64,000 nucleotides of DNA from Verrucomicrobiota bacterium (lineage in GTDB: Bacteria; Verrucomicrobiota; Verrucomicrobiia; Limisphaerales; PALSA-1396): assembly GCA_016200005.1 (NCBI GenBank), contig JACQFP010000064.1, positions 1 through 64,000 on the forward strand. Reading direction: 5' to 3'. The position numbers and the translations under genes are program-made. Positions 5,674 to 31,320 of this stretch are shown in pieces. Numbering within the stretch: the first letter of the stretch is position 1; every line of letters starts with the position of its first letter. The notes under the pieces are model-generated. The model saw nothing but the letters and a program-made list of their open reading frames with translations, was not told the DNA's origin and did not search any database.

Positions 5674-8600
5674 TTACATTCCGTTAACGATGGTCACCGG
5701 ACCCAGCAGACCGGACTCCAGTAGCGGCGTATCCTTGGCGAATGGATTCCAAGTCGTCCATGCCACACGCTGTTCCTTTGGCAGAGCCGCGTCGCCGATC
5801 AAGCGGTTCGGCCAAAGATTCGCAACCGTGATTTCGAGCTGATTCTCGCCGGACTTCAACGACCCATTGATATTCACGCGGAACGGCGACTTCCAGACCG
5901 TGCCTGCGTCTTTGCCGTTGATTTTCACCCGTGCCATGACCTCGACGTGGCCAAGATCCAGGAAAAGTTGAGGGTTGAGTGTTGAAGGTTGAGAGTTCTC
6001 CGGCTTCCAGTTGAACGCGTTGCGGTAGGTTGCCATGCCGCTGAAATACTTCACGCCCGGGTCGGCGTGCTTCGACCAATCCGCCAGCGTCTCGAAACTG
6101 GGCTGCTCCGGCGCGCCACGGCCCGGTTGGAAACGAACCTCCCACGGACCCTTGATTTCTTGGACCGGTGCAAACTCGTCCCAATTGCGGCCGGACGCTT
6201 TCGCCGATGACGCATTTGCAGAGTGACGGAACACGACAAACACCGAATCGTGCGCTTCGAGTTTCAGCGGCACGAACGTGCGTCCATCACGCTCCTGCCA
6301 GACTTGCGCCCGGCGGATTTCTCGCGTGAGCGGATTCCACAGCTCGGGTGCTTTTCCCGAAACGCGGAATGCCGCTGTCGTGATGCAAGTCTCGGCACTG
6401 CGGTTTGCCAGAAAGTAGATTTCGGTGTTGCCGTCGTGCCGATGTGTGTACCGCAATGGCCCGTCCGACTCGAAATCCGGCGGCAAGCCGTCCGCGCGTA
6501 ACATTACCGCCAACGCGGCGTAGTCGGGATAAATCTCGAATGCCGCATCCGCCGGCAATTCAGTCGTCCCGCCGTGGTTCGTGAGTGCAGTGCTCCAAAC
6601 GATCCGACCTTTGCCAAGGCGGCGCTGCCGGTTGGGAGTTCCGCCTTCAGGCGGTTGGGACGCCCGACCGGCTAAAGCCGGGACTCCAAACGCACCCCAG
6701 ATCTCACGGGCAAGATTTTGCACCTCCGCATCACACTGTGGATAGTTCGCCAGGCTCGGTGATTTGCGCGGTGGCGTGCCTGCGATCGTGGCCCCAGCTT
6801 GCGCGAGTTCCTTCACCTTGCGCAACAATCCGGGCGTCATCGTGTCCACGTTCGGCAAGGCGAGCAGTCGGTAGCTTGTGCCTCCGGGAAAAACGATCCT
6901 GCCCCGTTTCACCGTGGCGCGCGCCCGCAGCGTCTCCGGCGAACAGGCGTCGAAGTTGTATTCCAAATGATCCGGCGGATTACCGCGCAGGGCGGACTGC
7001 GGCGGCCGAAAGACCTGCGGCGCGCCCTCGGCCGTGAGGTAGAGAATGTCCGCCACAGCCACACCTTGTCGCAGCATGAACTGGCAGCGCGCGAGGTACT
7101 CATGAAAGTTCGTCACCATGGCCCACCAGGTCTGTGTGCGCTCCCAATGGACGCCGTACGGCCCCATGGTCATTCCCGGCGCGCGGTTGAGCCACGGTTG
7201 ATGCGCGTAACGATGGAAGACGATGCGGTTCACGCCAGAGCAAAACGCCCAATCGCCGAGCGCTTTCAAACTGCCCGGATGAAATTGCCAGCGCTCCTTG
7301 TCATCGGAAGTGAAGGACTCCGCCGCCACGATGGGTTTCCCGCCGGTGTGGGCGATGGAGGCCGCTTCGAAGCAACTGTACCAAGACTCGAAGCAGTTCG
7401 CCCAGAATTCGCACATCGGCACGTCGGCCACCGCGCCGAGGTTCAAATCCGCGGTCGGATTCATGTCGTAAGGCTCGATGGAAAGTCCCATGCCGTGACG
7501 GTGCGCAAGTTCCTTCAGATGTTGCGCGTGATTTTCGATGACGAGTTCCTGCGCGGTCTGGCGCACGTCCCAGAGGAAACGCTCCGAAACTTCACTGCAG
7601 TCCACGATGCGGCCCGTGAAGGCGGGGAGGTAGCGGAGTGGATCGTACCTGCGGCGGCGGCGGAATTCTTCGCGGAAGTTTGCGGTCCAGTTCTGCGCGC
7701 CCATTTCCCAACTGTCAATGTGCAGCGAAGTCAAACCCACATCGCGGCGTTTGTCCGGGCCAAGTTCGCGCAGCAATGCGCCAACAAAATGCTCGTAGTG
7801 GGAGTCCAGCGCAGCCTTGTCGAATTTGTCGCATTCAAGCCCGAGGCCGGGCGTCGGCGCAGGCCGCGTGTTCGCGCCGGTGCTGGTACGACCGAATCGC
7901 ATCACAGTCCAGTTGCCTGACGGCGCGTTCCACGTCAGTCGGCCCTCGGAGTCGAGGCGGTCGGTAAGATCGAGAATTCCGCCGGAAGCGATGGTTGCGC
8001 CCCTGGGCGACGCGGGAAATTCCGCTGGCGCGGGAATAAACGGTTTAACGCCAGGCATGGAGGAAAACGGATCGCGCACATAAAGCGCCTTGTGGTCAAT
8101 GTCGGCAATGCGTTCGTCGCCAACCGGAGTCGGAAGCGCGAGTACGGCAACATCGCGGTAAAACTCATTTTGCGCCTTGAGCAATTCCGTCGGCAGGCCA
8201 CCCGTGCCGAAGTACGGCTTGCGCGGAATTGGGCGCGGCAGCAAGGCGTTGAAGTTGGTTGGGCCGCTGACCTCAACCGCACTGGCGACGAGGTGTTGCA
8301 TGGATTGCTCGGGCTTGACCCACGGCCCGCCGCTGCCGGTCCAACCGGGCCCGGCATTGAGGGTGATTTGCAGCCCGAGCCGCTCCGCCTCCGCGACGAC
8401 GTGTTTGAAAAGTTGCCGCCACTCGGCACTCATGAACTTCACCGGGCCTTTGGGAATCCCCACGTCCACCTCCATGATGATGACGCCGCCAATGCCCGCG
8501 CGCTGCATCGCTTCGAGATCGGCGGTGAGTCCTCCGCGGCTGAGGTTGCCGTCCATCCACATCCAATAGACCCACGGACGAGCGGCGGCAGGCGGCGGTG

Positions 8601-8709
8601 CCGCAAAGCTGGCGGCCAAATCGCCGCCATTCGCCGCCGTGACCTGAGCGGCGGCCAACGCCACCCACAATCCAGCCGCAAGGAGCAGGAGTTTCACGAA
8701 CTTGTTCAT
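5674..8709 (-). CDS. GH106 alpha-L-rhamnosidase, paralogue A
   Basis: A secreted 1011-residue enzyme: signal peptide (KLLLLAAGLWVALAAAQVTA) followed by the GH106 opening ARPWVYWMWMDGNLSRGGLT, then IGGVIIMEVDVGIPKGPV, NAGPGWTGSGGPWVKPEQSM and IDSWEMGAQNWT. The C-terminal third ends in a jelly-roll segment (LFLDLGHVEVMARVKINGKD, WPNRLIGDAALP). GH106 enzymes release terminal L-rhamnose from glycans such as rhamnogalacturonan. It is the last gene of a long leftward run, 99 bases after a URO-D family gene. Two repeat-derived segments are translated in frame: PPEGGTPNRQRR near 6630-6693 and ENSQPSTLNPQL near 5966-6000. The 99-base leader also contains a palindromic stretch near 8750. Confidence 0.9.
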   Translation of the reverse strand: MNKFVKLLLLAAGLWVALAAAQVTAANGGDLAASFAAPPPAAARPWVYWMWMDGNLSRGGLTADLEAMQRAGIGGVIIMEVDVGIPKGPVKFMSAEWRQLFKHVVAEAERLGLQITLNAGPGWTGSGGPWVKPEQSMQHLVASAVEVSGPTNFNALLPRPIPRKPYFGTGGLPTELLKAQNEFYRDVAVLALPTPVGDERIADIDHKALYVRDPFSSMPGVKPFIPAPAEFPASPRGATIASGGILDLTDRLDSEGRLTWNAPSGNWTVMRFGRTSTGANTRPAPTPGLGLECDKFDKAALDSHYEHFVGALLRELGPDKRRDVGLTSLHIDSWEMGAQNWTANFREEFRRRRRYDPLRYLPAFTGRIVDCSEVSERFLWDVRQTAQELVIENHAQHLKELAHRHGMGLSIEPYDMNPTADLNLGAVADVPMCEFWANCFESWYSCFEAASIAHTGGKPIVAAESFTSDDKERWQFHPGSLKALGDWAFCSGVNRIVFHRYAHQPWLNRAPGMTMGPYGVHWERTQTWWAMVTNFHEYLARCQFMLRQGVAVADILYLTAEGAPQVFRPPQSALRGNPPDHLEYNFDACSPETLRARATVKRGRIVFPGGTSYRLLALPNVDTMTPGLLRKVKELAQAGATIAGTPPRKSPSLANYPQCDAEVQNLAREIWGAFGVPALAGRASQPPEGGTPNRQRRLGKGRIVWSTALTNHGGTTELPADAAFEIYPDYAALAVMLRADGLPPDFESDGPLRYTHRHDGNTEIYFLANRSAETCITTAAFRVSGKAPELWNPLTREIRRAQVWQERDGRTFVPLKLEAHDSVFVVFRHSANASSAKASGRNWDEFAPVQEIKGPWEVRFQPGRGAPEQPSFETLADWSKHADPGVKYFSGMATYRNAFNWKPENSQPSTLNPQLFLDLGHVEVMARVKINGKDAGTVWKSPFRVNINGSLKSGENQLEITVANLWPNRLIGDAALPKEQRVAWTTWNPFAKDTPLLESGLLGPVTIVNGM
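5966..6000. repeat. In-frame GTTGA-type near-tandem repeat (copy in GH106 A)
   Basis: 35 bases made of variants of GTTGAG/GTTGAA units. Read on the minus strand they encode the in-frame stretch ENSQPSTLNPQL just before the C-terminal jelly-roll of GH106 A. The same 35-base element, with three substitutions, occurs at 11415-11449 at the equivalent position of GH106 B. The third paralogue lacks it. Confidence 0.7.
6630..6693. repeat. In-frame palindromic element in GH106 A
   Basis: Two small hairpins in a row, CCGCCTTCAGGCGG (6641-6654) and CCGGCTAAAGCCGG (6668-6681), separated by GC-rich linker. On the minus strand it encodes the loop GVPALAGRASQPPEGGTPNR inside GH106 A. The position corresponds to the loop where paralogues B and C carry a different repeat. 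Confidence 0.7.
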
Positions 8710-8808
8710 AGATCGTCGTTCTTTGTAAGCCGGTTCAACCCAGAGCGCGAAGCGTCTGGTCCGGACTGTGCGCAGTTGTTTTCATTCTCGCAAGCTTCAC
8801 ACGACGGA

Positions 8809-9978
8809 TCAGGAGTAGAAGCCGCACTTGTAGGCTGTGTCGAACATCGTCAAAATGTTTTCCGGCGGCACCTCACCTTGGATGTTATGCACGTTGTTGA
8901 AAACGTAGCCGCCGCCCGGCATCAAGGCGCCAACGTTCTGCCGCACGCTCGCCGCCACTTCCGCCGGTGTGCCGCGCGACAACACATGTTGGGCGTCGCA
9001 ACCACCGCCCCAAAACGCCAGTTCGCGTCCAAAACGGCGCTTAAGTTCGGCGGGATTCATGTTCTTCGCGCTGGTTTGCACCGGGTTCAAAATATGAATG
9101 CCGTTGTCGAGCAGGTCGGGGATGAAATCACTGCACGCGCCGCAGGTGTGATACCAGATGCGGGCGTTCGTGCGGGAGCGGAGGTATTGGACGAGACGTT
9201 TGTGCCGCGGCTTGACGATGCGCCGGTATAGCTCCGGGTTGAACAGCGGGCCGTTCTGCCCGGCGATGTCGTCCCCGATCATGATCACTTCCACCACGTC
9301 GCCGACTTCATCGAGGAAGAGGCGAAACCAGTCGAGCCAGAATTTCAGCGTCTGTTCCAGCATCGCTTCGCAAAACTCCGGCTGGGTCATCAGATCGCAA
9401 AACCATTGCTCCAACCCGCGCATGTACCAGCAGATTTCATAGACCACGCCCGAGATGCCGCTAACGACGGCGTAAGGCGTCTCCTGCTTCAACTGCTGCG
9501 CCCGCTCACGCAAGCCGGTGAAGCGCGAGGGATCGTCGCCCTTGGGCCAGGGAAAATCGTTCACGTCGGCAAGCGTGGCGCTGGCTAGTGGATGCAACGA
9601 GATGTCCATGTAGTACGGCGTGTCATCGGGCATGGACCAGCGGATGCCGAACTCGTCGGTGAGGTCGTGCCAAAGCTTGCCGTCGCGCTGGGTTTGGACG
9701 ATGCCGCCTTTCCAGCTCGCCGCCGCGCCGGCGCGAACATAGCGCGTGTCCACGCGCAACCGCTCGAGCACCGCCTCGCAAGGCACGGCCAGTTGTTGCA
9801 CGGCGTCCAGGATGCGCACTTCGTCCGAAACGCCGAGGTGGGCGATCAGATTGCGATAAGCGTTCTTGTGGATGCCGGTCTGGTTGCCGCCCAGATCAAT
9901 CGGCACGCGGTCCGGCGTTTCGTGCTGCAACGCCGTGAGCAGACGCTCGCGCGAAGTCATGGTTTCTCGTCTGGCCAT
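8809..9978 (-). CDS. Uroporphyrinogen decarboxylase (URO-D) family protein 1
   Basis: 389 residues, cytoplasmic. The N-terminus SRERLLTALQHETPDRVPID is the hallmark opening of the URO-D/MtaA/CmuA superfamily. HTCG at the end of a strand (ARIWYHTCGACSDFIPDL) matches the His-x-Cys zinc motif of the methyltransferase branch. The C-terminal Cys ligand typical of that branch is not obvious (PGGGYVFNNVHNIQ occupies the place). A true haem enzyme (HemE) is unlikely given the context. It starts 13 bases after the stop of the second URO-D gene, with AAAGGGA as ribosome site. In this phylum such proteins often accompany sugar-degradation genes, but their reaction is not established; methyl transfer or demethylation is one inference. 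Confidence 0.8.
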   Translation of the reverse strand: MARRETMTSRERLLTALQHETPDRVPIDLGGNQTGIHKNAYRNLIAHLGVSDEVRILDAVQQLAVPCEAVLERLRVDTRYVRAGAAASWKGGIVQTQRDGKLWHDLTDEFGIRWSMPDDTPYYMDISLHPLASATLADVNDFPWPKGDDPSRFTGLRERAQQLKQETPYAVVSGISGVVYEICWYMRGLEQWFCDLMTQPEFCEAMLEQTLKFWLDWFRLFLDEVGDVVEVIMIGDDIAGQNGPLFNPELYRRIVKPRHKRLVQYLRSRTNARIWYHTCGACSDFIPDLLDNGIHILNPVQTSAKNMNPAELKRRFGRELAFWGGGCDAQHVLSRGTPAEVAASVRQNVGALMPGGGYVFNNVHNIQGEVPPENILTMFDTAYKCGFYS

Positions 9979-9991
9979 CGTCGAATCCCTT

Positions 9992-10996
9992 TCAGCCTCC
10001 CGAGGTGTACTCGTTCAGCAACCGCAGGTAAACCAGGTATTGTTCGAGCGACACACCCGGCGGCGTCTGATGATCCACGCTCGGAATAAACCCGCCGGTC
10101 TTCATCAACGGCACGAGGCGCTCGAACTCGGCGCGCATCGCCGCCTCGCCGCGGTTCATCGTCATCTTGTCAAAATGCCCGACCATCAGCAGCCGCGGAA
10201 ATTGCCGGCGCAGCTTCAAGCCGTCCACGCACGCCTGTCTTTCCAGTGGCAGCACGCCTTGCACGCCGAGTTCCTCAAGCCACGGCACGAGGAGCGTCAC
10301 GTCGCCGTCCGTGTCCATGAACAGCGGGACGTTGTGCTCCTGGAGCCGCGGCAAAAGCTGGCGGTAGTACGGCGCGACGAACTCGTCGAACGTCCGCTTC
10401 GCGATCATCGGGCCGTGGTTGTAACTCATGTCCTCGGCAATGGTCATGAACGTCGGCACGCAGACGCGGAAGATTTGATCGAGCAGACGGAAATTGAACT
10501 CGAGCAGGTCGCGGTTGATTTGGTGCAGCAGTTCCGGCTGGTCGGCGAAGGCGAACATGAGCTTCTCGAAACCCATCAACGTCCGCGGAAACCAGAAGAA
10601 GCCCTCAACCGTCGCCCAAACCACCGCGTCGCCGCGCCGCTGGCGCTCGGCCCACGCCGCCATGCTCTCGATGGCGCGACTGTGATCCGGAAATAATTGC
10701 GGTCGGACGCGGATGTAATCGTCCAGGTTGCCGACGATGCCTTCGACGTGATGCTGCGTCGCCTCGATGGTTGGGTCGGTGGTGCTGAACCAGAACTGCT
10801 GGTAGGGATCGAGGCCGAAGTGGGCTGCAATCTCGAAGACCTGACTGAACTTCATTTCGCGCGGCAATCCTTCGTTGTGCCAGCGGGCGATGGTTTCGTC
10901 CCACCACATGGCCCATTCCCATCGCGGCAACCGGTCCAACGGCTGGAAATTCATCACCGCGCGAAAGCGCTCGACGTGATTCATGGTTTCACTCAT
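9992..10996 (-). CDS. Uroporphyrinogen decarboxylase (URO-D) family protein 2
   Basis: 334 residues, cytoplasmic. HVERFRAVMNFQPLDRLPRW is the URO-D family opening, and the rest follows the barrel (DPYQQFWFSTTDPTIEATQ, AEDMSYNHGPMIAKRTFDEF, YRQLLPRLQEHNVPLFMDTD, RQFPRLLMVGHFDKMTMN). Where the methyltransferase branch has His-x-Cys it has MDTDGD, so the zinc site seems absent and the activity may differ from protein 1. The ATG at 10996 is used; TTG at 11008 and ATG at 10984 are alternatives. It sits between GH106 B (42 bases upstream) and URO-D 1 (13 bases downstream), evidently in one transcript. Confidence 0.8.
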   Translation of the reverse strand: MSETMNHVERFRAVMNFQPLDRLPRWEWAMWWDETIARWHNEGLPREMKFSQVFEIAAHFGLDPYQQFWFSTTDPTIEATQHHVEGIVGNLDDYIRVRPQLFPDHSRAIESMAAWAERQRRGDAVVWATVEGFFWFPRTLMGFEKLMFAFADQPELLHQINRDLLEFNFRLLDQIFRVCVPTFMTIAEDMSYNHGPMIAKRTFDEFVAPYYRQLLPRLQEHNVPLFMDTDGDVTLLVPWLEELGVQGVLPLERQACVDGLKLRRQFPRLLMVGHFDKMTMNRGEAAMRAEFERLVPLMKTGGFIPSVDHQTPPGVSLEQYLVYLRLLNEYTSGG

Positions 10997-11038
10997 CGGC
11001 AAATCCAACTGCCCTCACCTGCACCAGCTCGTGCAAAC

Positions 11039-14000
11039 TCACAACCGTTTCTCGGCAACCGAAATCAGCCGCACCGGACCGAGCAGGCCGGATTCCTGGA
11101 GCGGCGAATCCTTCTTCCACAGCCGCCAGCTTGTAAAGCTGTGGCGACCCGTCGGGCTGGGCTTGTCTTTTTGCAACCATCGCGGCCACGACTTGAGCGT
11201 GCCATCCGGGTTGCGGTCGCTGTCCTCGGGCAATTGTTCGTCGCCGATCTGGCGGTTCACCCAGAGGTTGACGATTTTCATTTCGAGCACATTATCGCCC
11301 GGCTTTAAGGCATCGGTCACCTCCACGCGGAATGGCGGCTTCCAGAGGAGGCCGAGGTTCTTGCCATTCAGCCTCACTTCGGCAATCACTTCGACCCGGC
11401 CAAGGTCCAGGAAGAGTTGAGCGTTGAGAGTTGAAGGTTGAGAGTTCTCCGCTTTCCAAGAAAACGTCTTGCGGTAGGTCGCGTGGCCAGAAAAGTACTT
11501 TACGCCGGGATCATTTTGTTCGCTCCAGGAAGTCAACCTGTCGAACGTGACCCGTTCGGGCGCGCCGCGATTCGGCTCGAACTGCACTTCCCACGGGCCG
11601 GCGATTTCGACCGGCGGCGGCAACGCCGGAATCTCAATGGTTTGAACCTTGCCCGCTGCCGTCCGCAAGTCGTAGCGGCCCGGCTGCCAAGCGCGAAGCG
11701 TGACGGCCTGTCCGCGAGCGGCGATCAACTCCGCCGGCGGCGGTTCGGTTAATGAGGCGCTGGCAGTCGGCAACAAACTCAGACCGTTGCGTTCCAGCGC
11801 CACGATTTGTTTTGCATCCGCCTTGCTCGAGTTCCGAAACACGACGAACACCGAGCCAGCCGGCTCAAGCCACAATGGCAGAATTGTCCGCCCATCGCGC
11901 TCCTCGTAAATCAACTGCCGCCGGATTTTGCCCGTGAGCGGATCCCACAACTCCGGCGCCTTGCCGGTCACGCGAAACGCGCAGGTCGCGCCACACCAAT
12001 CGTTCGAGCGATTCGAGACGAAGTAAATGTCCGTGCCGCCCGCTCGCCGATGGATGTAACGAAAGGTTGGATCCGCTTCAAAGTCCGGCGGCACGCCCAT
12101 TTGCGCGAGCACGTTCGTGATGGCGCCGAAGTCCGGGAACACGTAAGCCGGAGGACGGGTTTGCTCCGGCACCGGAAACGGCTCCAAGCCAAGCGAACCA
12201 ACTTCCATCGCCGCGCTCCAACCGGAAGATGCCGCATCGCCGCGCCATTGCTCCGGCGCGGTGACGACGCTTTGCCACTGGCTATCCGTGTTCACTTCCA
12301 GTGTCCCGCCGTCGCGAAACTGCACAAGCAGCGCGCCGATCAAACTCGCGGGATTCGGTTCGGCGTGCGCGTTGAATCCGGCGACGGCGAGCAGGTTCGT
12401 CCCTGGCTTGAGCCAGCGGGTTACATCCAGTCGAAACAATTGGTTGGCGTCCTGGCCGGCCCCGGCCCGCTGACCGTTGACCCACAACTCGAAACCGTTG
12501 TCCGCCGTCATGGCCATGCGCGCGGAGGCGACTTCGCGCGCGGCGTCCAACACCAAGAGTCGGCGGAAAAACCGTTTGCCCACGGGAGCGGCCACGGCGG
12601 GATTGCCTTCCCGGTGCCAAATCCACTTGGCGTTCTTCACCGGACTGCCTTCGCCCGGCACGAGGAGCGGCGTCTTGAAGGCATCGCTCCAAATGACACG
12701 GCCTTTGCCGATGCGGCGCTGGGGGATTGGAGTGTTGGAGTGTTGGAGTGTTGGGTCACGAGTCGTGGCTTTGTTTTTTCCATCACTCCAGTTCTCCATC
12801 ACTCCATCACTCCACAGTTCTTTGGCGAGTTCTTGCACCTCCACATCACACTCCGGATAATTGGCGAGGCCCGGTGATTTCTGCGGCGGCGGACCGATGA
12901 CCGTCGCTCCGGCTTGAACCAGTTCCTTGACCTTGCGCAGGAGCGTTGGCGTCATCGTTTCGATCTGCGGCAAGACCAACAGCCGATAGCTCATGCCATC
13001 GGGCAGCACGAGCCGGCCGTCCTTGACCTTCATCCGCGTGAGCAGCACCTCCGGCGTGCAGCCGTCGAAGTTGTAGCCGGGACGTTCAGGGAGCATGCTG
13101 AGGCGATCCGGCAGTGTGGGAGAGAAACGCATCGGCGAGCCTTCTGGTTCGAGAAAACAAATGTCTGCGACGAACAATCCTTGCCGCAGCATGAACTGGC
13201 AGCGGGCCAGATACTCATGCCACGCGACGGATTGCTCCCACCAGGTTTGCGTCCGCTCGTAGTGCAGCCCCCAGGGTCCCATGGACATGCCGGGCGCGCG
13301 CTCGGGCTGCGTCCACGGTTGCAGCGCGTAACGGTGGAACACGAAGCGGTTGATGCCTTCGCAAAACGCCCAGTCGCCCAACGCCTTGATCGAGGCTGGG
13401 TGATGCAGCCACTTCTCGCCATCGGTCGCCGTGAACGCCTCCGCGCCGAGAACGCTCTTGCCATAGACGTGCGCTGCCGACGCCATTTCCGTGCAACTGT
13501 AGCCGGTGTTGAAACCCCACGACCAGAACTCCGCCATCGGCTCGTCGGCCTGGCCGGCGTAGGTCATGTCATCGCACGGATTGCCGTCGTAAGCTTCGAT
13601 GGAAAGCCGCAGGCCGTTCTGATGCGCGAGTTCTCGGAAACGCCCGGCGTAATTTGCGATCAACAAATCGGAAACCGTCCGGCGCACATCCCAAAGGAAA
13701 CGCTCCGAAACTTCGACACTCTCGACGACGCGCCCAGTCATCACGGGAAGGAACGGCAACAGATCGTAGCCCCGCAACCGCTGGAATTCCTCGCGAAACT
13801 TCGGCGTCCAGTTTTGCGAACCAGTTTCCCAACTGTCAATGTGCGTCGCCACGAGCGTCTTGCCCGCGAGCGGCTTCGAATCGGCGATGAGCCTGCCCAT
13901 CAAGCCGGCGAACATCGCGTCAGTCGCTGCGCGGCTGAGCTTGTCGGACTCCAGGCCGCGTCCGGCTTCCGGCGCCGGATGATTGTCCTTGCCCGTCAGC

Positions 14001-14734
14001 GTGTGGCCGAGGCGGAGGATCGTCCATTTGCCTGCCGGCACGTTCCAAGTCAGGCGGCCAGCGGCGTCCATTTGCACGGTCAGATTGACGACGCGATCGC
14101 GAGCCACCGTTTGCTCCGTCGGCAAGGCAGGCCAATTCGCTTGCGGCGGAACTTGCCGGGGAACGAACGCAGCCTTGGCGGGCAACCCCTCGACGTGTGC
14201 ATCACCAGCCGGGGTCGGGAAAGCCATTACGGCGATGTCGCGATAGTAGTCGGCTACCGCGTCCGGTTTGGCCAGCGCCGCTTCGAAGCGGAGCGGGCCG
14301 ATGATGTTGGTTTCCGTCGAAACGATTTTCTGCATGGCCAGGTCGGGCGTTATCCACGGACCGCCGCTGCCGCACCAGCCAGCGTCGTTGTTCATGTTGA
14401 CCTCAAGACCAAGCCGGCTGGCCTCGGCGCAAACGTGCTTGAACAGGTCGCGCCATTGCGGGCCACCGAATGCGGCGTCACCCTTCGGAGTCCCTTGGTC
14501 CACTTCCATAATGAGCACGCCGCCGATGCCGACACGCTGCATGGCTTCGAGGTCGGCGGTGATGCCGTTGCTGGTGATGTTGCCGTTGAGCCAGAACCAA
14601 TAAACCCAGGGCCGCGCCGACGCGGGTGGGACGGCGAAATCATTTTCCAATCTTCCGGCGAAGCTTGTGGCCGTTGCCGCGAGCAACACGAGCAGGCAAG
14701 CGGGGAAAGACAAAGCGCGCGATGCAGTTCGCAC
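11039..14734 (-). CDS. GH106 alpha-L-rhamnosidase, paralogue B (repeat-laden)
   Basis: From the GTG at 14734 the product has 1231 residues. It begins with a signal peptide (ALSFPACLLVLLAATATSFA), then the GH106 opening ARPWVYWFWLNGNITSNGIT and GSGGPWITPDLAMQ. An extra beta-sandwich (KWIWHREGNPAVAAPVGKRF through DNGFELWVNGQRAGAGQDA) is inserted before the C-terminal domain. An in-frame ATG at 14995 overlaps the upstream stop as TGATG, suggesting translational coupling. It would add 87 residues translated from the CCCTCTCCC repeat at 14810-14957 in front of the signal peptide, which would probably block export, so I prefer 14734. Further repeat-derived segments lie at 11415-11449 and 12724-12820. 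It should release L-rhamnose, like paralogues A and C. Confidence 0.85.
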   Translation of the reverse strand: MRTASRALSFPACLLVLLAATATSFAGRLENDFAVPPASARPWVYWFWLNGNITSNGITADLEAMQRVGIGGVLIMEVDQGTPKGDAAFGGPQWRDLFKHVCAEASRLGLEVNMNNDAGWCGSGGPWITPDLAMQKIVSTETNIIGPLRFEAALAKPDAVADYYRDIAVMAFPTPAGDAHVEGLPAKAAFVPRQVPPQANWPALPTEQTVARDRVVNLTVQMDAAGRLTWNVPAGKWTILRLGHTLTGKDNHPAPEAGRGLESDKLSRAATDAMFAGLMGRLIADSKPLAGKTLVATHIDSWETGSQNWTPKFREEFQRLRGYDLLPFLPVMTGRVVESVEVSERFLWDVRRTVSDLLIANYAGRFRELAHQNGLRLSIEAYDGNPCDDMTYAGQADEPMAEFWSWGFNTGYSCTEMASAAHVYGKSVLGAEAFTATDGEKWLHHPASIKALGDWAFCEGINRFVFHRYALQPWTQPERAPGMSMGPWGLHYERTQTWWEQSVAWHEYLARCQFMLRQGLFVADICFLEPEGSPMRFSPTLPDRLSMLPERPGYNFDGCTPEVLLTRMKVKDGRLVLPDGMSYRLLVLPQIETMTPTLLRKVKELVQAGATVIGPPPQKSPGLANYPECDVEVQELAKELWSDGVMENWSDGKNKATTRDPTLQHSNTPIPQRRIGKGRVIWSDAFKTPLLVPGEGSPVKNAKWIWHREGNPAVAAPVGKRFFRRLLVLDAAREVASARMAMTADNGFELWVNGQRAGAGQDANQLFRLDVTRWLKPGTNLLAVAGFNAHAEPNPASLIGALLVQFRDGGTLEVNTDSQWQSVVTAPEQWRGDAASSGWSAAMEVGSLGLEPFPVPEQTRPPAYVFPDFGAITNVLAQMGVPPDFEADPTFRYIHRRAGGTDIYFVSNRSNDWCGATCAFRVTGKAPELWDPLTGKIRRQLIYEERDGRTILPLWLEPAGSVFVVFRNSSKADAKQIVALERNGLSLLPTASASLTEPPPAELIAARGQAVTLRAWQPGRYDLRTAAGKVQTIEIPALPPPVEIAGPWEVQFEPNRGAPERVTFDRLTSWSEQNDPGVKYFSGHATYRKTFSWKAENSQPSTLNAQLFLDLGRVEVIAEVRLNGKNLGLLWKPPFRVEVTDALKPGDNVLEMKIVNLWVNRQIGDEQLPEDSDRNPDGTLKSWPRWLQKDKPSPTGRHSFTSWRLWKKDSPLQESGLLGPVRLISVAEKRL
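11415..11449. repeat. In-frame GTTGA-type near-tandem repeat (copy in GH106 B)
   Basis: A 35-base element nearly identical to 5966-6000. On the minus strand it encodes ENSQPSTLNAQL immediately before the C-terminal jelly-roll of GH106 B. Paralogue C has unrelated sequence there (VPSEMLGKGKELSLDLGRV), so the insertion is either shared by descent between A and B or happened twice. Confidence 0.7.
12724..12820. repeat. In-frame GGAGTGTT/CCATCACT repeat in GH106 B
   Basis: A left block of GGAGTGTT units (12724-12755) and a right block of CCATCACTCC units (12780-12820) flank about 25 bases. On the minus strand it is translated without a stop as a loop containing DGVMENWSDGKN and LQHSNTPIPQ. The same composite element occurs at 16591-16693 in GH106 C. 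Confidence 0.75.
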
Positions 14735-14809
14735 TCTTTTCTTCGGAGGCGAGGGACGCAAGGTGAGACGAGGCACGTCCGCAATTCCTGAGTTGAGACT
14801 CGCCGCTAC

Positions 14810-14957
14810 CCCCTCACCCTGACCCTCTCCCCCTCGGCGAGGGAGAGGGGAAAGCAAACTGCGACTCGCGAAATTTTCAAGCGCGCTCGCCACACCGACA
14901 GACTGCCGACGATTCTCCCTCTCCCCTTTAGAAGGGGAGAGGGCCGCGGTGAGGGGA
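14810..14957. repeat. Double-hairpin CCCTCTCCC element (copy 1)
   Basis: Two hairpins, one at 14810-14850 and one near 14915-14956 (CCCTCTCCCC facing GGGGAGAGGG), flank a spacer containing TTTTCAAGC. An element of almost the same size and design is at 51893-52043, and a single-hairpin version is at 29837-29876. Here it separates the TGATG-coupled start codon of GH106 B from its signal peptide without introducing a stop. Confidence 0.75.
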
Positions 14958-14994
14958 CAACCGGCTGCGATGCGTGCGCGGATGGGTGTTTTCA

Positions 14995-17900
14995 TCACTT
15001 CAAAACGGCCGTTGGCACTGCGACCAATCGCACCGGCCCAATCAAGCCGGATTCAAGCAGCGCATCATTCTTCTTCCACAACCGCCACATTGCAAATGTG
15101 AAACGTCCGGCCGGGCTGGGCTTGCCTTGCTCCAGCCAATCCGGCCATTTCTTCAACGTGCCGTCCGGATTGCGCTCGCTGTCCTCCGGCAATTGCTCGT
15201 CGCCGATCAGGCGGTTGGGCCAGAGGTTGACGACGCGCACTTCCAGTTTGTTCGCGCCGGCTTTCGCGGCGTCGGTGATGTTCACGACGAACGGCGGCTT
15301 CCAGAGCGTGCCAAGGTTCCTACCGTTCAATTTCACTTCCGCCATAATCGCCACCCTGCCTAAATCGAGAGAAAGCTCTTTTCCCTTGCCGAGCATTTCG
15401 CTGGGCACGATGAGCGTTTTCGAGTAGATCGCTTCGCCGGAGAAATATTTCACGCCCAGCTCGCTGTGCTCGCTCCAGGAAATGAGTTTGTCGAAAAAAA
15501 CTTGAGCGGGCGCGCCCCAGCCCGGCGCGAAACGCACCTGCCACGGACCGCTGACATCGACGACGGGCGGGGCGGCTGAGATCGTGACGTGACGTGTTTT
15601 TCCCAAGGCACTCACCAGTTCATATTCGCCCGGTTCGCGCGTTTCCAGCCGCACGCCGCCATTGTTTCCACTGCGCACCGCGAGGGTTGATCGCGGCGGA
15701 ATGATTTCTGGGGCCAGGTTGATCGTGTCCGGGTCGGTGCCGGTAAAATGGCGGCGCTCGCCATTCACCGTGGCGTCCAGTTTGAGCGTTTTCACGACAA
15801 GGACGGCCGGGTCGTCGCCTTCGGCCATGCGCGCGACCACGAAGCTGCTCACGCCGGCATCCACGAGGCGCTGCAGCTTTTCCCGTACGTCACGTGTGCG
15901 CTGCGGATCATCCAGCACGCCGTAGCGCGCTTTCTCAACTTTCACTTGCACCGCCTCACGCGTCAGATGAATTGTTTCAGGATCGCGCGCCTGAACTGTG
16001 TACGGTTTGCCATCGATGGTGTAATCCACAACGAGCGTCTTCTCTACTTTGAACGCAGGGTCGTCGCCCTCCGCCATCGTCGTTACTGGAAAGCTGAATT
16101 CACCGGTGTCGGCCTTTCGCTGAACCTTCTGCGTCACGTCGCGGGTGCGCTGCGGATCGTCCGGCACGCCGTAGCGCGCCTTGGTCACGACGATTTTTAA
16201 TCGCGGCTCGGGCGCGGCGGACAAGACCGCCTTGCCATCGCGCTTCACCAGCACAACCGGATCGCTCTTGCTGGTGCGCTCGCGAAATGCGACGAACACC
16301 GAACCGCTGGGCTCGAACGGCACCACCACATGCGTCACGCCGTCCTGCTCCTGCCACATCGCCGCCCGTTCGATGCGTCCACTGTCGGGCCACCACAGTT
16401 CCGGTATTTTGCCCGTGACACGAAAACTACAGGTAGTCGTGAATTCGTGCGGCTGCGGGTTCGCGACGAAGTAAATCTCTGCGCTGCCGGTGGTGCGATG
16501 GATGAACCGCAATGTTTGGCCGCTGGTGAAATCGGCGGACACGCCGGATTCGGCCAGCACCTTCTCCGGCGAATCGCTAACGATAACACGGTGGAGTGTT
16601 GGGGTGTTGGAGTGCTGGAGTGTTGAATCAAGAGGCCGGACGCGTTTCTTCTCATCACTCCACTTCTCCATCACTCCATCACTCCACAACTCCTGCGCAA
16701 GCTGCTTCACTTCCTCGTCGCATTGCGGGTATCCGCTCAAGCCCGGCGAGGCAGACGGTTTCGGGCCGAGCACGGTGGCGCCGGCTTGAACGAGTTCCTT
16801 CACCTTGCGCAACAACGCTGGCGTCATCGTCTGCGGCCACGGCAAGGCCAGCACGCGGTAGCTCATGCCGTCCGGCAACACGATGCGGCCATCCTTCACC
16901 GACATGCGGGTGATGACTTCGTGCGCGGTGCATCCATCCCACGCGTAGCCGCCGCGCTTGTGATCGCCGGGGCCTTGCGGCGGCGCTTCCGGCTGGACGT
17001 AGCAGATATCGGCGACGAACAACCCCTGCCGCAACATGAACTGGCAGCGCGCCAGATACTCGTGCCACGCAGGCGTCCATTCCCACCAAGTCTGTGTGCG
17101 CTCATAGTGTTGGCCCCACGGACCCATCATCATGCCGGGTCGGCGCTCGGGCGTCCACGGTTGCAGCGCGTAACGATGGAAGACGAAACGATTGATTCCT
17201 TCGCAAAACGCGCGGTCGCCGTGCGACTTCAAAGTGGCCGGATGCTCGCGCCATTTTTCCTGATCGGCGGAAGTGGACGACTCTGCGCCGATGATGGTTT
17301 TGCCATAGACGTGCCCGGCGGAAGCCATCGCTTTGCAGGTTTCAATCGCGCCGCTTGGCGTCCAGAACTCGCCCATCGGTTCGTCGCATTGCCCGCCATA
17401 GGGAATGGCGTCGCAAGGAGCGCCGTAGGCTTCGCAGGTGAAGCGCATTCCCGCCGCGTGCGCCAGCTCGCGGAAGTGGCCTCCGTAATTCTCAATCACC
17501 AGTTCCGAAATCGTCTGGCGCAAATCCCAGAGGAAGCGCTCGGAGATTTCCAGACTGCCGATGACACGTCCGGTGAAGACTGGGAGAAACGGGAACAAGT
17601 CGTAGCCGCGCCGCCGCTGAAATTCCTCACGCATCTTCGCGGTCCAGTTCTGCGTGCCGTTTTCCCAACTGTCAATGTGCGTGGCAATCAGACCGGGTTT
17701 CTGGTTGCCAGTCTTGAGTTTGTTGTCCGCCGCCAGTCTTGCCATCATGCCGGCAAAGTTCGCTTCGATGCCTTCCTTGCGGAGCTTGTCGCATTCGAGA
17801 CCGCGGCCCGACTTGGGCGCGGGTGAATTCTCGACGCCGGTGCTGGTGTGGCCAAAGCGGATCACAGTCCAATTCCCCGGCGGCACATCCCATACGAGTT

Positions 17901-18582
17901 TGCCGGAGGCATCCATGCGCGGCGTGAGGTTCGTGAGCGCGTTACGTCCGAGGATCGAGTCCGGAGCGCTGGCGCCTTTGGACGGTTTGTGGCGGCCGCG
18001 TTTTTGGAAGGCCGCTTTCCTCTCAATGTCCGGAATGCGGTAATCGCCGACGGTTGGAAACGCCTGCACGGTGATGTCGCGGTAAAAGCCGGCCGTGGCT
18101 TCGGGTTGTGCCAGCGTTCCCTCGAAATGCTGCGGGCCAGCAAGGTTCGTCTCGGTCCAGACGACTTCCTGCATGGATTGCTCGGGTTTGATCCACGGAC
18201 CGCCGCTGCCGTTCCAGCCAGCGTCATCGTTCATGTTCACCTCGAGACCGAGACGGCGCGCCTCATTGTGGACGTGTTTGAACAAGTCGCGCCAGCGCTG
18301 GCTCATGAAATCCGCCGGGCCGACGGGCGCGCCCTGGTCCACCTCCATGATGAGCACGCCGCCGATGCCGACGCGCTTCATCGCTTCGAGGTCGGCGGTG
18401 ATGCCGTTGCTGGTGATATTGCCGTTGAGCCAGAACCAATAGACCCACGGGCGGGCGTCCGGTGGTGGATGATCAAAACCTTTCGCCAATGCGTGGTTCA
18501 GGTCACGCGCGTAAATTGAATTCTGAGCGAGACCAATCATCAAAGTGAGAACGGTAAAAACTGCGTAGGTGGATTTTTTCAT
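14995..18582 (-). CDS. GH106 alpha-L-rhamnosidase, paralogue C, with tandem DUF3395-like domains
   Basis: 1195 residues with a signal peptide (VFTVLTLMIGLAQNSIYA), then ARPWVYWFWLNGNITSNGIT, MEVDQGAPVGPADFMSQRW and NGSGGPWIKPEQSMQ of the GH106 catalytic part. Before the C-terminal jelly-roll lies a tandem pair of ~77-residue repeats, each containing KARYGVxDDPQRTRDV, MAEGDDP and a DPxTIxL end. This pattern resembles DUF3395 of DnaJC11-type proteins. Other repeat-derived sequence (16591-16693) is translated in frame at LWSDGVMEKWSDEKKR and LQHSNTPTLHR. The stop overlaps the ATG of the next ORF (TGATG), and the gene follows the PPC gene by 21 bases, so it is in the leftward operon. Expected role: exported rhamnosidase. 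Confidence 0.88.
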   Translation of the reverse strand: MKKSTYAVFTVLTLMIGLAQNSIYARDLNHALAKGFDHPPPDARPWVYWFWLNGNITSNGITADLEAMKRVGIGGVLIMEVDQGAPVGPADFMSQRWRDLFKHVHNEARRLGLEVNMNDDAGWNGSGGPWIKPEQSMQEVVWTETNLAGPQHFEGTLAQPEATAGFYRDITVQAFPTVGDYRIPDIERKAAFQKRGRHKPSKGASAPDSILGRNALTNLTPRMDASGKLVWDVPPGNWTVIRFGHTSTGVENSPAPKSGRGLECDKLRKEGIEANFAGMMARLAADNKLKTGNQKPGLIATHIDSWENGTQNWTAKMREEFQRRRGYDLFPFLPVFTGRVIGSLEISERFLWDLRQTISELVIENYGGHFRELAHAAGMRFTCEAYGAPCDAIPYGGQCDEPMGEFWTPSGAIETCKAMASAGHVYGKTIIGAESSTSADQEKWREHPATLKSHGDRAFCEGINRFVFHRYALQPWTPERRPGMMMGPWGQHYERTQTWWEWTPAWHEYLARCQFMLRQGLFVADICYVQPEAPPQGPGDHKRGGYAWDGCTAHEVITRMSVKDGRIVLPDGMSYRVLALPWPQTMTPALLRKVKELVQAGATVLGPKPSASPGLSGYPQCDEEVKQLAQELWSDGVMEKWSDEKKRVRPLDSTLQHSNTPTLHRVIVSDSPEKVLAESGVSADFTSGQTLRFIHRTTGSAEIYFVANPQPHEFTTTCSFRVTGKIPELWWPDSGRIERAAMWQEQDGVTHVVVPFEPSGSVFVAFRERTSKSDPVVLVKRDGKAVLSAAPEPRLKIVVTKARYGVPDDPQRTRDVTQKVQRKADTGEFSFPVTTMAEGDDPAFKVEKTLVVDYTIDGKPYTVQARDPETIHLTREAVQVKVEKARYGVLDDPQRTRDVREKLQRLVDAGVSSFVVARMAEGDDPAVLVVKTLKLDATVNGERRHFTGTDPDTINLAPEIIPPRSTLAVRSGNNGGVRLETREPGEYELVSALGKTRHVTISAAPPVVDVSGPWQVRFAPGWGAPAQVFFDKLISWSEHSELGVKYFSGEAIYSKTLIVPSEMLGKGKELSLDLGRVAIMAEVKLNGRNLGTLWKPPFVVNITDAAKAGANKLEVRVVNLWPNRLIGDEQLPEDSERNPDGTLKKWPDWLEQGKPSPAGRFTFAMWRLWKKNDALLESGLIGPVRLVAVPTAVLK
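16591..16693. repeat. In-frame GGAGTGTT/CCATCACT repeat in GH106 C
   Basis: The same two-block element as 12724-12820: variants of GGAGTGTTGGGGTGTT at the left, CCATCACTCCATCACTCC at the right. It lies in the same loop of the paralogous enzyme and is read through without a stop. Confidence 0.75.
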
Positions 18583-29226: not shown

Positions 29227-31320
29227 ATGGCTGCCATGCGCTTGAGAAACTTCTTCGTCCGGGCTGTCTGCGGGCTGGTGGTGCAGTTCGCGCACTCTGT
29301 GGGTTCGGCCACGGTTCCCGCCAGCGAGCCGTTCGATTACTTCGTCAATTCGTGGCAGGTCATCGGCCTCAAGGACTACCAGGACGGCACACGCATCACG
29401 CCGCAGAACGAGTTGCTGCTCGGCGACAAGTCGAAACTCCGAATTTCAGTCGGCTCGCGTCTCATCCCACTTGATCGCCAGCAAACCAAGACGCTGCTCG
29501 AGGGCTGGCTGCCGGTCGTGCTGCTCAGCACGGAGGAAGCCGGCGTCCGCTATGAGTTCACGCTTTGGGCCACGCCGTTGCTGACGGTGAAAAATTGGAA
29601 AGCTGCGTTTGATTGGCCGACCGAGGGCGAGAACTTCCTGAACTGGATTCAAGTCAAAGCCCGCAACCTCGGCACCGAACGCACCGAAGCGAGTGTCCGC
29701 CTCGAACGCGTTGGCACCAACGCGGCGACGTTAGCGGAATGGCGCACGCCGCTCAAACCGCGGCAAACCGCGACGACGTGCTTCCGCATCCCGTTCGCGC
29801 CACTTTCGACCAATCTCCTCACCCGGCCTCAGGCCACCCTCTCCCCATCCGATGGGGAGAGGGCCGGGGTGAGGGGCCACAGGGATCGCTCTGACTTGTT
29901 CAGCAACCAAAGCCCGCAGGTTTGGCTGAACCGAACGGTTGCATACTGGCGCAACCTGCTGGCAACCGGCACCCGCATCGAGGTGCCGTGCGAGAAGGCC
30001 ACGCAGGCACTCAAGGCGGCCCATGTCCAGCAGTTCATTGACAACGACCACGGCGTGTTGAAAGGCGGCGAAGGTTTCTACGACGAGTTTTACATCCGCG
30101 ACGGTGCGTATCAGATTTTGCAGTTCGAGGAAGGCGGTTTCATCAACGCGGCTCGGAAGGCTGTCGAGCCATACCTGAACGCGCAGCGGCCCGATGGTCG
30201 TTTCGAGACGCAGAAGAACCAGTTCGACGCCAACGGTCAGGCGCTCTGGACGCTCTGGCAGTTTTGGAAAATCACCGGCGACCGCGAGTTCCTGAAACGA
30301 GCGTATCCGCAGATGCGGCGGGCGGTCGAGTGGATCAAGCAAGCCCGCCGGCAGGCGTCGCCCGATTCGCCGTTTGCGGGCGTGCTGCCCAACGCGGTCG
30401 CCGATGGCGAGTACCTCTGGGACGGAAAACAACACATTGTCGGATATGATTTCTGGAATCTGCGCGGCCTGCTTTGCACCGCCGACGCAGCGCAAGCGCT
30501 CGGTGAGGATGCCGAGGCCGCGGCCCTGCGGCAGGAAGCTGAGGATTACCGCAAAGCCATTGACACCGCTTGGCAGCTCACAGGTCTGTCGCATTTTCCG
30601 CCGAGTTGGGAGAAAGTCGGCACGCACTGGGGCAACACCGAAACGCTCTGGCCCACCGAATTGTTCGCACTCGATGACCCGCGCGTGATCGCGTCACTTC
30701 GTGAAGTCCGCGAGAAATTCATGGGCGGTTTCCTCGAAGGTACGATTCGCTGGTCCGGTTTCCCTGACGTGATTCATCCTTACATGTCGTCCTACACGAC
30801 GATGGCGTCGCTGGCGCGCGGCGAGCATGAGCAGTTTGTCGAAGACATCTATTGGTATCTGCTTCACTCGACCGCGACGCACGCGTTTCCCGAGGGCGTT
30901 TACTTCAAGAAACGCACCGCCTGGAGCGACACCATCCCGCACGCCACCGGCGCGGCGAACTACGCCTTCCTGCTCCGCCACGCGTTGGTGCATGAGCGTG
31001 GCGATGAACTCCACCTACTCAGTGGCGTTCCGGATTGGTGGCTCGAAGCAGGTCGGGAAATCCGGGTTGAAAATGCTCCGACGCATTTTGGTCGCTTGAA
31101 CTTGCGCGTGCGCGGCAAAGCACACGGAGTCGAAGTGAAGTTCGACCCTCCAAGCCGCCAACCGCCGAAGCACATCGTTCTTCACCTCCCCGAGTCTCGC
31201 CCCTTGGCCAAACCGCCGAAAAGGGTGAGCGTCGAATTCCGCGCTGATCAAAAGCGACGCTGGGATTTTTCAACCGTGGTCGGGCTTTACCAAGAGCGGT
31301 CCGCTTCGAAAAGCGATTAG
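29227..31320 (+). CDS. Secreted (alpha/alpha)6-barrel glycosidase-like protein
   Basis: 697 residues with signal peptide (FVRAVCGLVVQFAHSVGSAT); a second ATG at 29236 is equally possible. Residues about 30-195 form a beta-sandwich (YFVNSWQVIGLKDYQDGTRI). From about 250 the sequence is a six-hairpin glycosidase toroid: FYDEFYIRDGAYQILQFEEG, QRPDGRFETQKNQFDANGQA, LWTLWQFWKITGDREFLKRA, YDFWNLRGLLCTADAAQALG, THWGNTETLWPTELFALDDP. The acidic residues in YIRDG and WGNTE could be catalytic by analogy with GH15/GH63/GH78-like enzymes, but no family is assigned. A repeat-derived stretch (TLSPSDGERAGVRG, 29837-29876) is translated in the linker between sandwich and toroid. It ends 3 bases before the alpha-galactosidase gene. 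Confidence 0.7.
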   Translation: MAAMRLRNFFVRAVCGLVVQFAHSVGSATVPASEPFDYFVNSWQVIGLKDYQDGTRITPQNELLLGDKSKLRISVGSRLIPLDRQQTKTLLEGWLPVVLLSTEEAGVRYEFTLWATPLLTVKNWKAAFDWPTEGENFLNWIQVKARNLGTERTEASVRLERVGTNAATLAEWRTPLKPRQTATTCFRIPFAPLSTNLLTRPQATLSPSDGERAGVRGHRDRSDLFSNQSPQVWLNRTVAYWRNLLATGTRIEVPCEKATQALKAAHVQQFIDNDHGVLKGGEGFYDEFYIRDGAYQILQFEEGGFINAARKAVEPYLNAQRPDGRFETQKNQFDANGQALWTLWQFWKITGDREFLKRAYPQMRRAVEWIKQARRQASPDSPFAGVLPNAVADGEYLWDGKQHIVGYDFWNLRGLLCTADAAQALGEDAEAAALRQEAEDYRKAIDTAWQLTGLSHFPPSWEKVGTHWGNTETLWPTELFALDDPRVIASLREVREKFMGGFLEGTIRWSGFPDVIHPYMSSYTTMASLARGEHEQFVEDIYWYLLHSTATHAFPEGVYFKKRTAWSDTIPHATGAANYAFLLRHALVHERGDELHLLSGVPDWWLEAGREIRVENAPTHFGRLNLRVRGKAHGVEVKFDPPSRQPPKHIVLHLPESRPLAKPPKRVSVEFRADQKRRWDFSTVVGLYQERSASKSD
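29837..29876. repeat. CCCTCTCCC hairpin element in a coding linker
   Basis: CCCTCTCCCCATC (29837-29849) and GATGGGGAGAGGG (29851-29863) are perfect 13-base arms one base apart, followed by CCGGGGTGAGGGG. It is translated in frame as part of the linker between the beta-sandwich and the toroid. It belongs to the element family at 14810-14957 and 51893-52043. Confidence 0.75.

Follow-up and report, generated by a model that had tools for sequence, protein, structure and literature searches.

The window, a stretch of 64,000 nucleotides from a Verrucomicrobiota assembly (GCA_016200005.1, contig JACQFP010000064.1), carries three genes on the reverse strand, A (5674-8709), B (11039-14998) and C (14995-18582), whose products each score above the curated PF17132 cut-off in a profile search (E 5.5e-187 for A) and therefore belong to the GH106 alpha-L-rhamnosidases; the modelled fold of A matches structures 6q2f and 5mqm. 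In each gene, extra codons start immediately past a conserved ...CDxEVxxLAxE(L/I)W; they occupy the loop that joins the helix with (L/I)W at its end to the GxGR(V/I)-bearing beta-hairpin. The extra codons of A form a palindromic element of about 64 bp, here called P (6630-6693, reverse strand, encoding about FGVPALAGRASQPPEGGTPN), and those of B and C form elements of a second type, G8 (12724-12820, SDGVMENWSDGKNKATTRDPTLQHSNTP, and 16591-16693, SDGVMEKWSDEKKRVRPLDSTLQHSNTPTL, both on the reverse strand). The sequence-only reading that preceded this analysis had placed the elements at these coordinates, all at one loop, and had them read in frame without stops; both points stand, and the reading frame is open through all three. 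The insert of A is predicted by AlphaFold2 to be disordered: in a model with a mean pLDDT of 87, residues 675-691 have pLDDT below 50 and are flanked by a helix (658-671) and two strands (694-705).

A tandem repeat of seven nucleotides, (CTCAACN)n, constitutes a third family that had gone unnoticed in the sequence-only reading (166 matches in the genome, with 82 in the control). It is read in frame in the C-terminal domain of A (5973-5994, reverse strand, ENSQPSTLNPQ) and at the same position in B (11416-11443, reverse strand, ENSQPSTLNAQ), and at this second shared site it is absent from C and from the compared relatives of A and B. Directly after its repeat loop (window positions about 12150-12670), B also has an extra domain of sugar-binding type (NAKWIWHREGNPA...), which is present in several homologues and absent from A and C. 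A further dispersed-looking repeat (CTCCCC...GGGGAGAGGGCCGGGGTGAGGG) occupies 14800-14955 in the N-terminal part of the B reading frame, with more copies at 29841 and 52009 of the window; it precedes a likely signal peptide, and the GTG at 14998 is probably not the real start of B, which would lie downstream of it.

P and G8 are both dispersed through the genome. G8 spans about 100 bp. Its two arms consist of units of 8 nt, one arm of GGAGTGNT and the opposite arm of the inverse; a 22-mer from G8 matches the 6.54-Mb assembly 68 times at up to three mismatches, in about 25 places, and a 25-mer from P matches 31 times, with zero matches for the reversed-pattern control in both cases. In scans of the window, about zero matches to the P motif or the G8 units would be expected by chance. 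As single-stranded DNA the elements fold better than shuffled sequences (z -2.3 in A, -4.8 in B and -6.0 in C), and copies of P begin with (GTTT)GGAGT next to the hairpin. It could be argued that the extra residues are ordinary GH106 loop sequence that owes nothing to repeats, given that WSDG and DGVxE are similar to the usual WGDxDGxxVxE, but the close copies elsewhere in the genome, both intergenic and in unrelated genes, together with the zero controls, refute this for A, B and C and leave it virtually no probability. The loop insertions thus come from dispersed repeat families, and the earlier expectation that the elements recur elsewhere in the genome is confirmed by the whole-assembly search.

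Related sequences were also seen outside this genome. In G016, a relative (labels with G denote genomes and those with L loci or homologues), a variant of the P arm, (A/G)GAGTCCCGCCTTTAGGCGG, reaches nearly 300 copies, which are often spaced by about 142 or 211 bases. Beyond the order, inverted pairs of G8-like 8-nt arms occur, among the matches listed, at L272, L292, L294, L289, L315 and L328, on contigs titled Desulfobacteria, Deltaproteobacteria, Acidobacteria, Planctomycetota and Prosthecobacter, so that the G8 type is not confined to this order, bearing in mind that the listed matches of the exact G8 scan of the genome collection include many tandem arrays and define no clean taxonomic range.

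In-frame insertion of P and G8 is not peculiar to GH106 and is general in this genome. A census by coding score, covering the 538 kb that surround the matches, places in-frame copies of P in folP, folC, mutS, mutL, prmC, selA, selB and apbE, as well as in genes for a UPF0261 protein, an M19 peptidase, a glycosyltransferase and a kinase. In-frame copies of G8 came to light in polA, hemW, two kinase genes, a gene for a PQQ-type protein and one for an AcrB-type pump. The housekeeping genes, named by curated models, include mutS (L103, 5963-6030), mutL (L114, 6013-6032), polA in its 5' nuclease part (L086, 6381-6436), folP (L096, 6057-6119), folC (L101, 5973-6020) and prmC (L112, 5991-6010). When MutS is aligned with the MutS chain 7ou2_A, its insert of 31 residues falls between 608 and 610 of the latter, shortly before GPNMAGKST; in DHPS the profile match is interrupted at about position 105-107. 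In these genes P occurs in several reading frames, which argues against a selected or conserved peptide. Different repeat families also share a site in a second case, the hinge of three Ser/Thr kinases of the source genome, which carry repeat inserts after YYVMELAD (L076, about 6130-6210 on C2; L090, about 6280-6400 on C36; L091, about 6012-6100 on C55): two of these inserts belong to G8, and the third consists of a GAAATCC repeat, itself found at 10 places within the 538 kb read. L076 and L090 also have in common a CTCAAC-type stretch slightly past the hinge insert.

The GH106 loop was then compared among about 125 homologues extracted from the order, in which the segment from (L/I)W to GxGR(V/I) mostly measures 9-14 residues (13-14 being most common). 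Close relatives of A and C have repeat-free loops: L178, 81% identical to A, and L186, its other sister, have a loop of 10 residues lacking P, and L196, L198 and L158, relatives of C, have loops of 13 residues lacking repeat sequence. P loops occur in A, L171 (G105), L172 (G040) and L174 (G047), all of 27 residues and in one phase, and G8 loops in B, C, L187 (G143) and L175 (G264), which adds to the source genome three genomes with the P type and two with the G8 type. L194 (G265) looks like a partial G8 and is counted only as G8-like, L173 retains a GGTPN that resembles a P end, and the long loops of L165, L166, L151 and L152, which contain no recognisable repeat, are assigned to neither family. 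L171, the closest relative of B, has P at the very place where B has G8. Recurrence at one loop, which the sequence-only reading had found striking in three paralogues, therefore extends to several genomes and, as seen below, to separate places on the tree.

How many events lie behind this pattern can be approached from a tree of 91 proteins, built on the part before the loop with the loop left out (quick search, LG+G4), on which gain and loss are not distinguishable. P carriers and G8 carriers each sit at four positions, as forced by the starred branches; neither group of four makes up a single clade, and B is not sister to C. The AU test rejects a single P clade (p 3e-149), a single G8 clade (p 6e-51) and the union of B and C as sisters (p 3e-64), and together with the tree this rules out a single insertion before a B/C duplication. 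Gene conversion among the tandem paralogues could instead have copied the loop between A, B and C, as B and C adjoin each other, their elements show 97% identity over the first 30 nt (which also weighs against our preferred explanation) and A and B have the 7-nt repeat at a common site. Against this, identity is not raised in the flanks, other pairs of elements are closer than that of B and C, the family in A is a different one and the same loop is used in other genomes. A conversion tract between B and C is accordingly rejected, very short tracts excepted, and we regard gene conversion as quite improbable; the insertions would rather have been independent.

The loop copies of G8 are linked to the genomic pool of the family. 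All that were found belong to genomes rich in dispersed copies of the family (G000, G143, G264, G265 and G009, with 19-158 matches, as opposed to 0-2 in G8-poor genomes), in 4 of 10 GH106 genes there versus 0 of 45 in the G8-poor genomes (p 6e-4, with genes sorted by hand and related genes treated as independent). Insertion from a local pool is thus better supported for G8 than for P, for which one old insertion followed by losses or transfer is possible because the four loops are equal in length and phase, L173 has a P-like end and G040 and G047 show no P pool above background. That the P loops share one length and phase, and that two of them are in genomes lacking a pool, counts against our preferred explanation. 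They also bear on the earlier statement that the same loop residues in homologues free of dispersed repeats would speak against a repeat origin: G040 and G047 do carry P-derived residues with no pool, so that these insertions may be old, transferred, or survivors of their source, and to this extent the statement applies. Generalised to one ancestral insertion per family, with the repeat-free loops as later deletions, the same three observations are accounted for; yet such a history demands many precise losses on the tree, leaves the link of G8 to local pools unexplained and has to accommodate P and G8 in the near relatives L171 and B, and we consider it unlikely.

Altogether, the explanation that we favour, and hold to be probable, is that short non-autonomous hairpin repeats enter genes, where they survive if the frame stays open and the loop is neutral, and that the GH106 loop has been filled more than once. 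P and G8, which look like selfish DNA and appear to be mobile, would be dispersed hairpin-forming repeats that spread within this bacterial order; purifying selection would keep intragenic copies only where the frame remains open and the loop is structurally neutral, and the inserted peptide presumably has no function. Repeated filling of the loop would fit with its G8 copies matching a family that is abundant in the same genome. Neither a transposition event nor a target duplication nor a mobiliser was observed for P or G8. The four Y1 transposase (Y1_Tnp) genes have other inverted repeats nearby and neither P nor G8, and mobilisation by a RAYT was rejected on this ground.

Whether the loop merely tolerates insertions or attracts them is a separate matter. 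By length variation it ranks ninth of 35 gapped segments in 71 repeat-free homologues, and among 136 GH106 frames, other matches to P or G8 were at control level or unconvincing; tolerance alone is therefore not an obvious full answer. Targeted insertion would mean that P, G8 and other families prefer short DNA contexts and hit this loop beyond what tolerance explains. The empty record of the eight more variable segments agrees with this, as do the three kinases with repeats at one hinge site and the mutual similarity of the gene site TGGGGNGA, the G8 unit TGGAGTGA and the P end TTTGGAGT, which may add a preference. That similarity is weak, however, and the element junctions in GH106, examined for target-site duplication of the MITE type, are blurred; moreover, the most variable GH106 segments are sites of whole-domain insertion and do not lend themselves to direct comparison. 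How many independent events took place is also too uncertain for targeting to be proven, and we judge it unlikely. The suggestion of the sequence-only reading thus holds for two element types in one equivalent loop, and neither of its alternatives, a hinge that tolerates or one that attracts, is decisively favoured. Only tentatively, and with rather low confidence, would we extend targeting to a shared rule by which unrelated families keep reaching particular loops (that of GH106 and the hinge of the kinases) across genomes, making repeats a recurrent source of new loop sequence in paralogous enzymes.

These observations have practical consequences. Loops in mutS, polA, folP and other genes of such genomes are repeat-derived and should be annotated with caution, and the empty, P and G8 loops of GH106 constitute a natural comparative series for asking whether insertion is targeted or only filtered by selection.

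Among known systems, the Rickettsia palindromic elements (RPE) are palindromes within coding genes of Rickettsia. The Rickettsia-like picture proposed earlier holds as a way of working because P and G8 are also read in frame within housekeeping genes whose functions are unrelated, although sequences and host phylum are different, the G8 arms are made of 8-nt units and recurrence at one loop in paralogues sets P and G8 apart. MITEs are likewise short, non-coding, dispersed and bounded by inverted repeats, but for P and G8 no target duplication was found, nor any parent transposon with matching ends at the Y1 genes, where alone a parent was sought. A further precedent is that of the GTAG/CGTC REPs, which are known within genes from many bacteria, with DNA repair genes among their targets; in two Xanthomonas species, recB carries a REP at nearly the same site (PMC3733652). 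Intragenic GTAG REPs are most numerous in Opitutus terrae, itself a verrucomicrobium, so that the claim of the sequence-only reading that no such system is described for this phylum is wrong (PMC3733652, the one paper to the point in limited searches for verrucomicrobial cases). Like these REPs, P and G8 are short dispersed palindromes, often dimers, in frame in genes that include DNA repair genes, and the recB case parallels their use of one site. Unlike them, P and G8 have no visible GTAG or CGTC tag and are not counted as members; GTAG REPs have copies beside a RAYT gene, whereas no P or G8 adjoins a Y1 transposase gene here; and different families share one loop across several genomes. As far as limited searches of papers show, what is new is the G8 type, together with the recurrent occupation of a single loop by different families in several genomes; this extends the in-frame invasion of genes by repeats to an order in which different hairpin families are found repeatedly in one loop.
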